A stretch of DNA of 50,085 bases from Caldifarciminota bacterium SM23_42 (GTDB taxonomy: Bacteria > Hydrothermota > Tepidihabitantia > SM23-42): assembly GCA_001303785.1 (NCBI GenBank), contig LJUJ01000015.1, positions 1 to 50,085 of the forward strand, given 5' to 3'. Positions 11,737 to 16,742 of this stretch are shown here, one piece after another (positions within the stretch are counted from its first letter, which is position 1; each line of letters opens with the position of its first letter). The position numbers and the translations under genes were made by a program. The notes under the pieces were generated by a model. It was not told the DNA's origin. It worked only from the letters and a program-made list of their open reading frames with translations, and ran no database searches.

Positions 11737-13218
11737 TTAAGGAACTGGTACCTGCCTTACTTTCGGAAAACGACCATATAAACGTCGATAGACTTGAGGA
11801 TAGTCAGATTTCCCACCCAGGAGCAGGGTTGTAATGGGCAACGCACGCTTTGCCAAGGCTGACATTTTATGCGCCTTGTCTCGGATATCCCACTGAGCAG
11901 TCGGATCCTCGCGCAGCCGCGAAACGTGGTACAATTCCCTCAAGTTTACCTTCATGAGCACCCGGCGCCGGTGCGCATTGGTAAGGATGTAGCTGCCGAT
12001 ACCAGGTCGGGTATTCTCTATTTTGTAGTATAATTCGTCCACCCCCTTAATTAACTCAAGGAATCTTTCCTCTTCGTCGACCTCTTTAATCGATTCCGGC
12101 ACCGTGATCCCTAAGCGCGGGTCATAATCACTCCACGTGATAGATGCCATGCGATGACGCTTCAGCTGACCAAAACAGCCGCCTGACACCACAAGCGCAT
12201 AGCTGAGGTCTGCGTACTCAAATTCCCTGAGCACAACGTCATAGAGTTCAAGGTGCGCACATGCTTTCTTGAAAAGCTCTATTCGTTTCTTTTTTGACAT
12301 TTTCTTTACCGACCGTAGACACGAATCATAATTTCCATGCGAGGACTTGAAGACAAACGCAGCCAGAATTCTGCTATCGCCATCAGCAGTATGGCCAACC
12401 AATTCAACGTCCGAATCATTTCTCACGGTCTGCACGGCCAGCATTTTTCGACATTGTCTCTCTATTTCTCCATATGTTTTCTTGTCGTAATCATTGGCTT
12501 CGTAGAACAAAATAATCGAGGGTGCGACCCTCTTCACAAGCTTAAACAGCTTCTCGCCTAGCTCACGCACCTCGCCGAGCGGGTGTGAGGCAAACCTTCT
12601 TATCATTAACTCAATATTCCTGGCATTAACGGTCGCCCCAACCTGGGTCTGGGTTGCCAGAGAAAGGATATAGCGAGCATCTTCTTTGGCCAAATTTTCA
12701 AGAAGCCGCTTGTCCTGGCGTTCCTTGGTTAGTGCCGCTAATTTCTCAAAGTTGTGTTTCTTGATTTTATCAAACAGACGCACATATAATTCGTTCTGCT
12801 GCCGGATGATACTGCGGAATTCTTTGCGCAATTGTCTATCCTGCAATTCCCGGGGCACAAGATAATCGCCCTTCAGGGTCACGTAGCGTTGTGATTTCTC
12901 CGTATACGAGCATAATCGGAATCTCTCGAATTCTTCAATCGCCCTCCGTGAGATACCGATGATGTCGAAATTGAAAACCGCGTGCTCGGCAACAGAGTGA
13001 TGTCCCATCTCAAAAATAATCGTGCGATTCGATTTTCTTGCCCTTGCCACCTCGCGCCTTGATATTTCTCTTAAAACATCAACTGGTTTTGGACTTCGGC
13101 TTATGCGCGCGTACGCGGCCGATATCGACTCGGGGGTCAAAAGTGTTCTACGTTGCTTGTACTCCTTCAACGCATCAAGATCTACGTTGTAGCCGGCGAG
13201 TATCAAGCGCATCTTCAT
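11737..13218 (-). CDS. thyX: Tandem-domain flavin-dependent thymidylate synthase
   Basis: ThyX makes dTMP from dUMP using methylene-tetrahydrofolate, FAD and NADPH. Most ThyX proteins are about 220-250 residues; this one is 493 and holds two ThyX domains. Domain 1 (about 1-240) has GHHSVAEH (72-79) and the motif RFR..SYTEKSQRY (99-112), with the usual central His replaced by Phe100. It continues to NARNIELMIRR. Domain 2 (about 260-493) keeps RHR (354-356), but the Ser normally ten residues on is Asp364; it also keeps NLRELYHVSRL and AQWDIR. The active-site motif is thus split between the halves. Double-length ThyX is, as I recall, also known in chlamydiae. It shares ATGA with the upstream gene. 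Confidence 0.88.
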   Translation of the reverse strand: MKMRLILAGYNVDLDALKEYKQRRTLLTPESISAAYARISRSPKPVDVLREISRREVARARKSNRTIIFEMGHHSVAEHAVFNFDIIGISRRAIEEFERFRLCSYTEKSQRYVTLKGDYLVPRELQDRQLRKEFRSIIRQQNELYVRLFDKIKKHNFEKLAALTKERQDKRLLENLAKEDARYILSLATQTQVGATVNARNIELMIRRFASHPLGEVRELGEKLFKLVKRVAPSIILFYEANDYDKKTYGEIERQCRKMLAVQTVRNDSDVELVGHTADGDSRILAAFVFKSSHGNYDSCLRSVKKMSKKKRIELFKKACAHLELYDVVLREFEYADLSYALVVSGGCFGQLKRHRMASITWSDYDPRLGITVPESIKEVDEEERFLELIKGVDELYYKIENTRPGIGSYILTNAHRRRVLMKVNLRELYHVSRLREDPTAQWDIRDKAHKMSALAKRALPITTLLLGGKSDYPQVYRRLYGRFPKVRQVPVP

Positions 13219-14297
13219 CGATGCCCTCTATTGAATCTACCCGCTATGTCTCTGGCCACCTGTTTCAACGCAGGTAGCATCTTCTTGGCCGCCAAATGGT
13301 AGGCACTAAGATCCCTGCCCACCGGGTCAGGCACCTCATTATACCCAGTCTTACGCTTATATTCCCTGAGCATAAATGTCTTTACTACCGCATCCGGATT
13401 GATTTCAAGAACGGCTTCGTAGTTTTTGTACTCCATTACTAGAATCAGATCTGCCCAATCGACCAATTCTCTATTCAGTGATCTCGTTTGATGACGATCT
13501 ATAGAACCACCGTATTCTCTGACAACTTGCTTGGCATAATGTGCTGCTGTCAAACCACCCATCGCAATAGTCCCAGCAGACTGCACTTCGCAGTATTTTC
13601 GGTCAACCAGGGTCTTGAATATGCCCTCGGCCATCGGGCTTCGGCACGTGTTACCACTACACACGAAAAGCACATTGAACTTCAAATCCCTGGTAAGCAT
13701 TAACTTGCGGCCATAGACCTTCTCAATTTGGAGAATCGGAATCATTCCTTTGCGCTTTACCACAGGTGGGGTAGCCACAAGATCAACTACGGTAGAGGGC
13801 GTTGAGTATAGCATACCTCCATCAATGACCAAGGAAACCTCGGTGAAATGCTCAATGATATCATAGGGTGATGTTAATGATGGCTCGCCCGATATGTTGG
13901 CACTGGTCACGGCTAGAGGATTTTGGTATGTGTTCAACAAGCGGATCACGAAATCGTGCTGAGGAATACGAATACCTGCTTTATCTTCGACCAACGGCAG
14001 TGAAATACCTGCTCGTTTCTTCAATATTGCGGTCAGGGGTCCGGGTATGAAAAAATCGATAATTCGTCTCTTACTAATGACGACGTATTTCTCAACTGCA
14101 CTCTTAGGCATGAAAAAAGTAAATGGTTTATCTTTCCGATGTTTCAATCCGATGAGCCTGCTCACCGCGCCTTCATTTGCGCAATCAACCGCAAGGCCAT
14201 ATACAGTATCTGTAGGTATGGCAATGACCCCGCCTTTCTTAAGAGTCAATACTATGCGATTGATGGATTTATGGACCTCGTCGATTTTGATAATCAT
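13215..14297 (-). CDS. TsaC/Sua5 threonylcarbamoyl-AMP synthase fused to LMW phosphatase
   Basis: Residues 1-200 are a YrdC/Sua5-type L-threonylcarbamoyladenylate synthase, with IPTDTVYGLAVD near residue 27, PGPLTAIL near 85, and LAVTSANISGEPS near 129. It provides the activated intermediate for the t6A base of ANN-reading tRNAs. Residues 207-360 are a low-molecular-weight protein tyrosine/arginine phosphatase with the P-loop CSGNTCRS (Cys213, Arg219) and the general acid in VPDPVG (Asp324). Both active sites look intact. In Bacillus the equivalents ywlC and ywlE are near neighbours, so this is a fusion of a known gene pair. The stop overlaps the thyX start by 4 bp. Confidence 0.9.
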   Translation of the reverse strand: MIIKIDEVHKSINRIVLTLKKGGVIAIPTDTVYGLAVDCANEGAVSRLIGLKHRKDKPFTFFMPKSAVEKYVVISKRRIIDFFIPGPLTAILKKRAGISLPLVEDKAGIRIPQHDFVIRLLNTYQNPLAVTSANISGEPSLTSPYDIIEHFTEVSLVIDGGMLYSTPSTVVDLVATPPVVKRKGMIPILQIEKVYGRKLMLTRDLKFNVLFVCSGNTCRSPMAEGIFKTLVDRKYCEVQSAGTIAMGGLTAAHYAKQVVREYGGSIDRHQTRSLNRELVDWADLILVMEYKNYEAVLEINPDAVVKTFMLREYKRKTGYNEVPDPVGRDLSAYHLAAKKMLPALKQVARDIAGRFNRGHR

Positions 14298-14326: not shown

Positions 14327-14734
14327 TTATCTTGTAAGTTGTTTGTACAAACGACTGGCAAACAGCGCCGCGTTTTTGGCTCCTGACCGACCTATGCCAA
14401 AGGTTGCCACCGGCACCCCAGAGGGCATCTGGGCAATCGAAAGCAGTGAATCTAGCCCCCCCAGGGTTGATGCCGGAAGGGGAACACCAAGAACCGGGAT
14501 GTCAGTCATGGAAGCAATGAATCCGGGCAGATGTGCTGCTAAACCAGCGCCAGCAATGATTGCCACCACACCTTCATCCTTTGCCTTGGCGATCAATTCT
14601 CTGATCTTGTCCGGCTCGCGGTGGGCAGAATGAATGAATCTATCATACGGGACAGATTCTTTTTTTAATACTTCTTCAGCAACAGACATCGTCTCAATGT
14701 CTGATTTACTCCCCATGAACACCCAAATCTTCAT
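14327..14734 (-). CDS. purE: N5-CAIR mutase PurE
   Basis: PurE catalyses the carboxy-shift that gives carboxyaminoimidazole ribonucleotide in purine synthesis. Family blocks are GSKSDIETM (residues 8-16), SAHREPDKI (36-44), AGAGLAAHLPG (61-71) and the substrate loop GVPLPASTLGGLDSLLSIAQMP. At 135 residues it is about 25-30 shorter than usual: it stops right after the NAALFA helix and lacks the C-terminal helix. It overlaps purD by 4 bp (ATGA) and precedes the TsaC fusion by 29 bp. PurK is not visible, so the class (mutase or carboxylase) is inferred only from similarity to class I enzymes. Confidence 0.9.
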   Translation of the reverse strand: MKIWVFMGSKSDIETMSVAEEVLKKESVPYDRFIHSAHREPDKIRELIAKAKDEGVVAIIAGAGLAAHLPGFIASMTDIPVLGVPLPASTLGGLDSLLSIAQMPSGVPVATFGIGRSGAKNAALFASRLYKQLTR

Positions 14735-16017
14735 TTTCGCCTCTTCCGTTTCATTTTTTTCATGCCGGTATTACCAATATCCTTTCTATAATACATCCCC
14801 TTGAAACTTATCTTCTTAATCTCCTCGTAAGCCTTCTGCTTGGCAACTTTCAAATTATCATGTACCCTGACGACATTCATTACTCGACCTGATGCCGTGA
14901 CCAGCTTTGAATCTTCCATTCTAGTGCCGGCATGAAAGAGCAGTGTCCTGGAATCCAATTTCTGTTTGAACGAGATTTCTTCACCGATACGGTAATCTGT
15001 AGGATAACCGGCCGATGCCAGTACCACACAGAGTGACCACTGGTTCTTCGCCTTTAGAGGTTCGTCAGAGAGTTTTCCTTCGGCTGCCGCGACCATGGCA
15101 CTCAACAGATCACCTTCAACCAAGGGCAGAATCACCTGCGCCTCAGGATCCCCAAACCGGCAATTGAACTCTAAAACCTTGGGCCCGGTCGAGGTCAGAA
15201 TCAAACCTGCGTACAGAACGCCCTTATAATCCAAACCCTGATCCCGCATCGAGAGAACTGTCGGCTGAATTATCACGTTTTCAATAATATTTGATATACG
15301 CTTGTTCGTCGGATAAGGTGCATAAGCACCCATGCCTCCGGTATTCGGTCCGCGATTGCGGTCGTATAGCTTTTTGTGATCCTGCGCAGACGGCAGATAG
15401 GTGATCGAGACGCCATCCGTGAGCACAAACACCGACGCCTCTTGCCCGGTCAGAAACTCCTCCACCACTATGCGATTGCCGGCCTCGCCGAGTCTATGCT
15501 GCACCAGTATTTCGTCGATGATCTTCTCATACGCGCGTTTATTGTTAGCCGCGAATACGCCCTTTCCCCCGGCTAACCCGGATGCTTTCACGATTACCGG
15601 AAACTTGTTTACGGTCTTGGTGTATTTTAGAGCCTCGGAGGCGGTTTCGTAGATTTGAAACCTGGGTGCTGGGATGCCAAACTTGCCCATGAATTCGCGG
15701 GCGAATGACTTGTCCGCCTCGATGCGACTCGCGTTCTTGTTGGGCCCGAATATTTTGAGCCCGGCGTCTTCAAATTCATCAACGATACCCATGGCCAGGG
15801 GCAACTCTGGACCGACAACGGTGAAGTCAATTTTCTTCTCCCCGGCAAAGCGTAGCAAGCCCGGTATGTCTGACGCGAGGATATCAACACATGTAGCGAC
15901 TTCTGCAATGCCTGGATTGCCTGGTGCGACATAGGTTTTCCTAACTCTTTTTGCTTTACTCAATTTCCAGGCAAGGGCATGTTCTCGGCCACCTCCACCG
16001 ACAACCAAAATCCTCAT
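14731..16017 (-). CDS. purD: Phosphoribosylamine-glycine ligase
   Basis: PurD (GARS) joins glycine to phosphoribosylamine with ATP in de novo purine synthesis. The 428-residue protein shows the N-terminal GGGGREHALAWKL block and VGPELPLAMGIVDEF. The ATP-grasp core follows with VKASGLAGGKGV, DHKKLYDRNRGPNTGGMGAY and EFNCRFGDPEAQ, all typical. Length matches single-domain PurD. I chose ATG 16017, because GGAG lies six bases upstream, over the GTG one codon earlier. The start overlaps the stop of the GGGP synthase gene (TGATG). A strongly basic tail (KKMKRKRRK) at the C terminus is unusual. Confidence 0.95.
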   Translation of the reverse strand: MRILVVGGGGREHALAWKLSKAKRVRKTYVAPGNPGIAEVATCVDILASDIPGLLRFAGEKKIDFTVVGPELPLAMGIVDEFEDAGLKIFGPNKNASRIEADKSFAREFMGKFGIPAPRFQIYETASEALKYTKTVNKFPVIVKASGLAGGKGVFAANNKRAYEKIIDEILVQHRLGEAGNRIVVEEFLTGQEASVFVLTDGVSITYLPSAQDHKKLYDRNRGPNTGGMGAYAPYPTNKRISNIIENVIIQPTVLSMRDQGLDYKGVLYAGLILTSTGPKVLEFNCRFGDPEAQVILPLVEGDLLSAMVAAAEGKLSDEPLKAKNQWSLCVVLASAGYPTDYRIGEEISFKQKLDSRTLLFHAGTRMEDSKLVTASGRVMNVVRVHDNLKVAKQKAYEEIKKISFKGMYYRKDIGNTGMKKMKRKRRK

Positions 16018-16742
16018 CACAATCTCCTCATGATTCCTTCGAATTGCTCCTTGGACCGTTCAATAATGCTACCCAAAACTACAAAATCTGCGCCTGCGTC
16101 AAAGCTTTTCCTTACCTCGTCATAATCTCGGAGCCCACCGCCAACAATCAGCGGGATGTTGATGGTTTCCCTAACCTTCTTGACCATTCCGCTAGGTACG
16201 GGATTCTTGGCGCCACTTCCTGCCTCTAGGTAAATGTACTTCATGCCGAAATATTGACCAGCCAAAGCGTGCGCAACTGCGATTTCATACTTGGAACGGG
16301 GGATCGGTTTTGTATTCGAAATATACTCAACCGTCGTGCAGTTCCCAGATTCAACGAGTATGTAGCCGACAGGAATAACCTCGAGGTTACATTCTTTGAT
16401 GAGAAATACTGCCTTAACCTGCTCACCAATGAGGAACTCCGAATTTCGGCCACTCAATAGGGATAGAAAAAATATCGCGTCCGCGCGGGGACACACTTGA
16501 TGAGACCCACCCGGGAACAAAATGACCGGGCATTCTGTGTTGTCCTTGACAGCACATACGAATTTTTCAAAATGTGGCGACACCAGTAGTGAAGACCCAA
16601 TGAGGACTCCTTTTACACCATTATCACACACTTGTTTGGTCAATGTACCGACTTCTTCTACGGATACCCGATCCGGGTCGAAAAGAGCTAGAACCCCGGG
16701 CTTTGATTTTTCGAGATGGTCATAGACTGATTTGGATGTCAT
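16017..16742 (-). CDS. Geranylgeranylglyceryl phosphate synthase (PcrB/GGGPS family)
   Basis: This TIM-barrel prenyltransferase family joins sn-glycerol-1-phosphate to a polyprenyl diphosphate through an ether bond, the first committed step of archaeal lipids. The 241-residue protein has LFDPDRV near residue 21 and the GVLIGSSLL block. FPGGSHQVCPRADAIFFLS follows, then YIYLEAGSGAKNPVP (phosphate and prenyl binding) and IVGGGLRDYDEVR with AGADFVVLGSIIE. Length and the FPG..H motif resemble the longer bacterial/archaeal group II enzymes rather than Bacillus PcrB, but this needs a tree. It is first in a five-gene operon with purine, tRNA-modification and thymidylate genes. Product chain length and use cannot be read from sequence. 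Confidence 0.88.
   Translation of the reverse strand: MTSKSVYDHLEKSKPGVLALFDPDRVSVEEVGTLTKQVCDNGVKGVLIGSSLLVSPHFEKFVCAVKDNTECPVILFPGGSHQVCPRADAIFFLSLLSGRNSEFLIGEQVKAVFLIKECNLEVIPVGYILVESGNCTTVEYISNTKPIPRSKYEIAVAHALAGQYFGMKYIYLEAGSGAKNPVPSGMVKKVRETINIPLIVGGGLRDYDEVRKSFDAGADFVVLGSIIERSKEQFEGIMRRL

Follow-up and report, generated by a model that had tools for sequence, protein, structure and literature searches.

A TsaC/Sua5–phosphatase fusion protein in candidate division WOR-3/TA06 and Planctomycetota, with repeated decay of the TsaC half

What joins a tRNA-modification enzyme and a phosphatase in one polypeptide? The question is raised by a single open reading frame of the window (the whole stretch of 50,085 nucleotides analysed here), in which a TsaC/Sua5 (TC-AMP synthase) domain of the t6A pathway precedes a low-molecular-weight (LMW) phosphatase domain. 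Because both active sites are kept, a sequence-only reading had argued for a real link, for example phosphatase control of tRNA modification or removal of a phosphate by-product. The host lineage is candidate division WOR-3/TA06, and the closest named relatives are WOR-3 and TA06 genomes (L083–L086, 59–71% identity). The features of the locus are listed below.

13215..14297, minus strand: TsaC–LMW phosphatase fusion, 360 residues, ATG start, no internal stop
13746..14243, minus strand: TsaC/Sua5 (TC-AMP synthase) domain, residues 19–184 (Pfam PF01300; TIGR00057 over cut-off)
14136..14144, minus strand: KxR half of the catalytic tetrad, K52-H53-R54 (alignment; motif as named in the available part of PMC9654439)
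13896..13904, minus strand: SxN half of the catalytic tetrad, S132-A133-N134 (alignment)
13680..13715, minus strand: interdomain joint, residues 195–206 (Pfam/NCBIfam borders; ordered in the predicted model)
13272..13673, minus strand: LMW phosphatase domain, YwlE type, residues 209–342 (Pfam PF01451; YwlE among the best PDB matches)
13638..13661, minus strand: phosphatase P-loop C213-SGNTC-R219-S, position 5 = T217 (PX5 rule, from the available part of PMC8001253)
13326..13328, minus strand: general-acid Asp324 of the DP motif (read from the sequence)
14327..14734, minus strand: purE, upstream neighbour (TIGR01162 over cut-off)
14731..16020, minus strand: purD, upstream neighbour (TIGR00877)
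11737..13218, minus strand: thyX-like gene, 4-base overlap with the fusion stop (TIGR02170 / PF02511)

According to profile matches, the minus strand carries pcrB, purD, purE, the fusion and thyX in this order. The ThyX-like protein (493 residues) has two Thy1 matches and is roughly double the ThyX profile in length.

The frame comprises an intact TsaC/Sua5 domain, a joint of about ten residues and an intact LMW phosphatase domain, as had been described. Both Pfam domains score over cut-off: Sua5_yciO_yrdC with 140.3 bits (cut-off 25.1) and LMWPc with 92.7 bits (cut-off 23.2). The joint lies between the end of the TIGR00057 match (residue 194) and the first phosphatase strand, which begins at residue 207. 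An AlphaFold2 model based on 12 aligned fusions has a pLDDT of 89.3 and a pTM of 0.86. The mean pLDDT in the blocks covering residues 191–210 is ~94–95, and the joint is accordingly predicted to be ordered. In this model the two domains are confidently packed together. Foldseek relates one half of the model to Sua5/TsaC and the other half to YwlE.

TIGR00057 (L-threonylcarbamoyladenylate synthase) matches the N-terminal half with 154 bits (cut-off 123.2), and the TsaC tetrad (K52, R54, S132 and N134) is complete in the alignment. The SUA5 domain (PF03481) was not found in the fusion protein by Pfam search. The fused TsaC is the only free TsaC/Sua5 of the genome. One further PF01300 match is located in a frame of 748 residues, which judging by its length is presumably HypF.

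The active-site residues of the phosphatase half are present at the positions previously assigned to them (C213 and R219 of the CX5R P-loop and D324 of the DP acid). The best PDB match is 4egs, followed by the YwlE entries 4pic, 4kk3 and 1zgg; the YwlE structures align with a TMt of 0.85–0.90. The product that TsaC releases is pyrophosphate (PPi), and the substrates of LMW phosphatases are phosphorylated amino-acid side chains. It is therefore unlikely that the phosphatase half removes a phosphate by-product, and the idea found no support. Thr at position 5 of the P-loop gives YwlE and PtpB their specificity for phosphoarginine, whereas Ile at this position favors phosphotyrosine (PMC8001253, available part). 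The corresponding residue here is Thr217. Among 55 WOR-3 phosphatases the position is occupied by Thr in 32, Ser in 20, Cys in two and Leu in one, and never by Ile. In 55 Planctomycete proteins the distribution of T/S/I/L/R/M is 35/9/4/3/3/1; thus 11 of the 55 carry I, L, R or M, and Leu is also found in G104 and G129. These two Planctomycete fusions (L264 and L265, respectively) have the P-loop CLGNLNRS, in which Asn replaces the second Cys, and lie on a long branch. In G195 and G215 the second P-loop Cys is replaced by Asp. None of the proteins read, 55 from WOR-3 (seven of them unfused) and 57 Planctomycete fusions, has lost the catalytic Cys, the Arg or the DP acid. Judged by Thr217, the YwlE structures among its closest solved relatives and the McsA/McsB pair of the genome, the phosphatase half probably removes phosphate from protein arginines in the manner of YwlE. 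An assignment as ArsC was rejected, since the thioredoxin-type ArsC profile reaches 36.9 bits (cut-off 174.3). The second LMWPc protein of the genome (L002, G000:C53:4160-4534) is ArsC-like with 128.7 bits, likewise below cut-off; its neighbours are presumably the phosphate-transport genes PhoU/PstB.

A fusion confined to one genome, or an assembly error, is ruled out by relatives in WOR-3 and Planctomycetota. The 61 genomes of the WOR-3 class comprise 49 with a fusion-type protein, seven with an unfused phosphatase and five (G005, G014, G047, G057 and G058) in which no fusion-type match was found. With a fusion-type frame in 49 of 61 genomes the fusion is not a chance event. Of the 79 Planctomycetota genomes sampled, 57 encode both domains in a single frame covered by one match. 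Frames were selected by the P-loop motif; fused matches failing the motif (G011, G104 and G129) were read separately and keep Cys and Arg. The only fused match dropped is that of G013, which is cut by a contig end, and G150 was not counted because its apparent fusion is a free Sua5. In one Fermentithermobacillaceae protein (L103) a complete Sua5 including its SUA5 domain (PF03481) is joined to the phosphatase. The two genes were also said to be neighbours in Firmicutes; this was confirmed in Clostridia, where Sua5 and then the phosphatase are separate abutting genes in nine loci (L096–L100, L106, L112, L113 and L128). Altogether, 23 of the 80 loci compared have tsaC/Sua5 and the phosphatase either fused or side by side. 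The gene rpiB follows the fusion in 7/7 Planctomycete loci (L088–L094) and is also found after most Clostridial pairs. At L105:2148-5513 the order is purD-purE-tsaC-phosphatase-rpiB, all as separate genes, so that this locus unites the surroundings of WOR-3 and Planctomycetota in unfused form. No description of a TsaC–phosphatase fusion was found in the open-licence PMC literature.

If the phosphatase acts on arginine, McsB would be the opposing kinase. The genome encodes a McsB of 352 residues that adjoins McsA. Its NF002194 score is just under the cut-off (382.7 versus 385 bits), and McsA scores 104 bits (cut-off 210). Two Clp ATPases (807 and 809 residues) are present, and partial frames match ClpB/ClpA models under cut-off. 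The McsB family is almost universal in both groups, with 58/61 WOR-3 genomes (41/41 of good quality) and 248/254 Planctomycete genomes. Nothing beyond incidental mention of McsB in Planctomycetes was found in the open-licence PMC literature. In f5 genomes (L065–L067) mcsA-mcsB lies ~3–5 kb upstream of the fusion locus. Unfused WOR-3 genomes carry McsB too, and within WOR-3 McsB follows the lineage and not the fusion. In the first Planctomycete sample the fusion was present in 1/5 McsB-less and 56/74 McsB-carrying genomes (p = 0.020), which suggested that the fusion tracks McsB. This was not replicated at ≥90% completeness, where the fusion, its phosphatase apparently active, was retained in 4/6 McsB-less genomes versus 8–9/20 controls. 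Bacillus subtilis has both McsB (PF00217) and Clp_N (PF02861) proteins. The B. subtilis control was silent for both profiles, possibly because the control copy lacks the operon, and counts of McsB absence are therefore soft. L106 is the only Clostridial pair genome without a McsB match, and its phosphatase (L106:2618-3076) lacks the usual P-loop Cys. This locus is a single hint in favor of a phosphatase–McsB link.

The argument that both active sites are kept fails beyond the closest relatives. The phosphatase residues never decay. Of the 48 WOR-3 fusions that could be read, however, 16 have a broken TsaC tetrad and 32 an intact one (one further fusion-type protein is cut by a contig end), and 8 of 57 Planctomycete fusions are likewise broken. 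Intact and broken states were scored on the S/N pair of the tetrad. A separate TsaC/Sua5 accompanies 13/16 broken and 0/32 intact WOR-3 fusions (Fisher 2.9e-9), and 8/8 broken and 1/49 intact Planctomycete fusions (the exception is G113; Fisher 5.4e-9), both values being inflated by kinship among genomes. The WOR-3 table excludes G013, the seven unfused proteins and the five genomes without a match. On a phosphatase tree built without the TsaC columns, six independent pairs point the same way, none the opposite way and four are ties (p = 0.031). The broken state requires at least eight changes on this tree. In a new sample of 12 Planctomycete fusions, a second TsaC match was present in 5/5 broken and 0/7 intact cases; the second match of G346 is part of a frame of 827 residues and is possibly HypF. 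The KxR half is less strict. In G027, G040, G083, G094, G098, G100, G111, G144 and G156, R54 or K52 differs although the S/N pair is intact and a second TsaC is absent.

Decay is also seen close to the window genome. For the TsaC half this counts against the sequence-only reading, which had named loss of one catalytic set in close relatives as evidence against itself. Genus g12, which belongs to the same order, includes one intact fusion (G023) and two broken ones (G024 and G026). A separate Sua5 of 338 residues is encoded elsewhere in the genome of G024; none was found in G026 (84% complete). Wherever read, dead or missing TsaC halves are at the same locus beside purD. In f6, the unfused lineages G056 and G039/G041 are nested among dead-half proteins on the phosphatase tree. 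Thus, as far as can be read from the sequences, the TsaC half of f6 appears to have passed from intact to dead to gone. Because the TsaC half died repeatedly and the separate TsaC/Sua5 is mostly elsewhere, the phosphatase needs no active TsaC beside it.

The dead halves evolve faster than the phosphatase half yet are under purifying selection. Close relatives have dN/dS values of 0.10–0.38 in the dead N-terminal half (G151–G130, 0.10; G116–G084, 0.11; G029–G035, 0.15; G053–G059, 0.20; G031–G033, 0.27; G046–G051, 0.38). Intact pairs are mostly in the range of 0.06–0.22, with 0.28–0.37 in two pairs of very low dS. For G002–G007, G024–G026 and G023–G024 dS is saturated and the ratio hence uninformative, zero values being meaningless. 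Pseudogene debris is ruled out for the pairs with unsaturated dS. The best-preserved part of the dead halves is the C-terminal TsaC segment that runs into the phosphatase. Pfam gave a TsaC match in 0/9 f6 dead halves, which match TsaC by profile-profile comparison only (E = 1.1e-8). For the f5/f7 dead halves this comparison is weak (32%, E = 5e-4); their TsaC origin therefore rests on the adjacency to purD and the common C-terminal segment.

A second tie to t6A genes was observed in Clostridia. The order phosphatase-rimI-tsaD, mostly behind polA, is present in 17 loci found by the phosphatase motif alone. RimI was called by TIGR01575 over cut-off and TsaD by similarity; the gene downstream of rimI is taken to be tsaD. 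In four of these loci the phosphatase and RimI form one protein whose gene lies immediately before tsaD, and the other 13 are unfused. The fused cases are:

L104:3986-4888: phosphatase–RimI fusion, upstream of tsaD
L114:3998-4852: phosphatase–RimI fusion, upstream of tsaD
L127:384-1286: phosphatase–RimI fusion, upstream of tsaD
L139:4010-4864: phosphatase–RimI fusion, upstream of tsaD

As the phosphatase is found beside both TsaC/Sua5 and RimI-TsaD, it meets t6A genes from two sides. The proposed link thus stands insofar as the domain pair recurs in WOR-3, Planctomycetota and Fermentithermobacillaceae and has this second t6A tie.

We give slightly better than even chances to a bifunctional protein that arose from an old tsaC–phosphatase gene pair and combines TC-AMP synthesis with dephosphorylation of protein arginines, the two being linked through expression and packing. 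The N-terminal half would be the TC-AMP synthase of the genome for tRNA t6A37 and the C-terminal half a YwlE-type phosphatase that reverses phosphorylation by McsB. Expression, stability and a fixed packing would be common to the halves, not chemistry, and each half would work without the activity of the other. With such independence the fused TsaC site would be expected to decay once a second TsaC/Sua5 exists, the phosphatase and the inactive fold staying. That one half has died repeatedly speaks against shared catalysis, and catalytic coupling between the halves is probably absent. Alternatively, the phosphatase may target the t6A pathway itself, e.g. autophosphorylated TsaE (UbK/YdiB) or the TsaD–TsaB complex, and the fusion would place it there. 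Two unrelated gene contexts, TsaC/Sua5 and RimI-TsaD, favor this, as do the available parts of PMC6733980, according to which UbK autophosphorylates, its ATPase depends on autophosphorylation and a phosphatase "not yet identified" is speculated upon. On the other hand, the LMW phosphatase SP-PTP of Streptococcus pyogenes failed to dephosphorylate the UbK homologue SP-TyK (PMC8689070, available part), and it is the fused TsaC that dies and the phosphatase that stays. Phosphatase control of t6A is possible; as the reason for the fusion a target in this pathway is rather unlikely.

Operon drift would need no functional link at all: neighbors in tsaC-phosphatase-rpiB or purE-tsaC-phosphatase order would have fused by loss of a stop. 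The position of rpiB, the separate genes of L105 and the fusion of the phosphatase to RimI as well are in line with it, but the fusion is retained over most of two sampled phyla and the dead halves with unsaturated dS are under purifying selection, which makes mere drift improbable. The same selection, together with the preserved segment beside the phosphatase and the confident joint packing of the predicted model, would suit a TsaC half on which the phosphatase has come to depend for structure or sensing, whether the TsaC site is active or dead. Since the f6 lineages G056 and G039/G041 lost this half completely, it is dispensable, and such a need is hardly likely. Just as doubtful is a role of the fusion in switching between accurate translation and protein quality control, in which the TsaC half would sense t6A substrates or product and gate an arginine phosphatase opposing McsB–ClpC, or the phosphatase would reset the TsaE/TsaD side. 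In that case the dead TsaC halves would serve only as sensors or scaffolds and represent a pseudoenzyme of several origins.

In the preferred reading of two independent activities, the fusion would connect protein-arginine phosphorylation with an essential tRNA modification beyond Firmicutes, in most sampled WOR-3 and Planctomycetota. The lineages in which the TsaC half has died, several times over, and another TsaC has replaced it amount to a natural experiment, in which the purpose of the fusion can be told apart from its two activities. Furthermore, the RimI-TsaD link and the fusion together open a direct way to test whether a phosphatase acts in the t6A pathway.

Compared with known systems, the phosphatase half has the C-x4-C-R-S P-loop, Thr at position 5, the DP motif and the fold of YwlE/PtpB of the LMW-PTP family, and McsA/McsB are present in the genome. 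YwlE/PtpB, however, is a free enzyme of ~150 residues, whereas the domain described here forms the C-terminal part of a fusion protein and comes from outside Firmicutes. The best structural match (4egs) is the LMW phosphatase of T. tengcongensis, which was deposited under the name RpiB, i.e. that of a different neighbor gene, and is presumably a phosphatase–RpiB fusion. With TsaC/Sua5 (YwlC, YrdC) the N-terminal half has the PTDTVYG motif, the KxR-SxN tetrad and a TIGR00057 score over cut-off in common, but the place of the C-terminal SUA5 domain of Sua5 is taken by the phosphatase. Besides SUA5, only the HypF and TobZ fusions surfaced in term searches of two TsaC/Sua5 papers, among them PMC9654439. 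In HypF and TobZ (YrdC-like and Kae1-like domains) a TsaC-like domain is likewise joined to a second enzyme; the partner is a carbamoyltransferase there and a phosphatase here.
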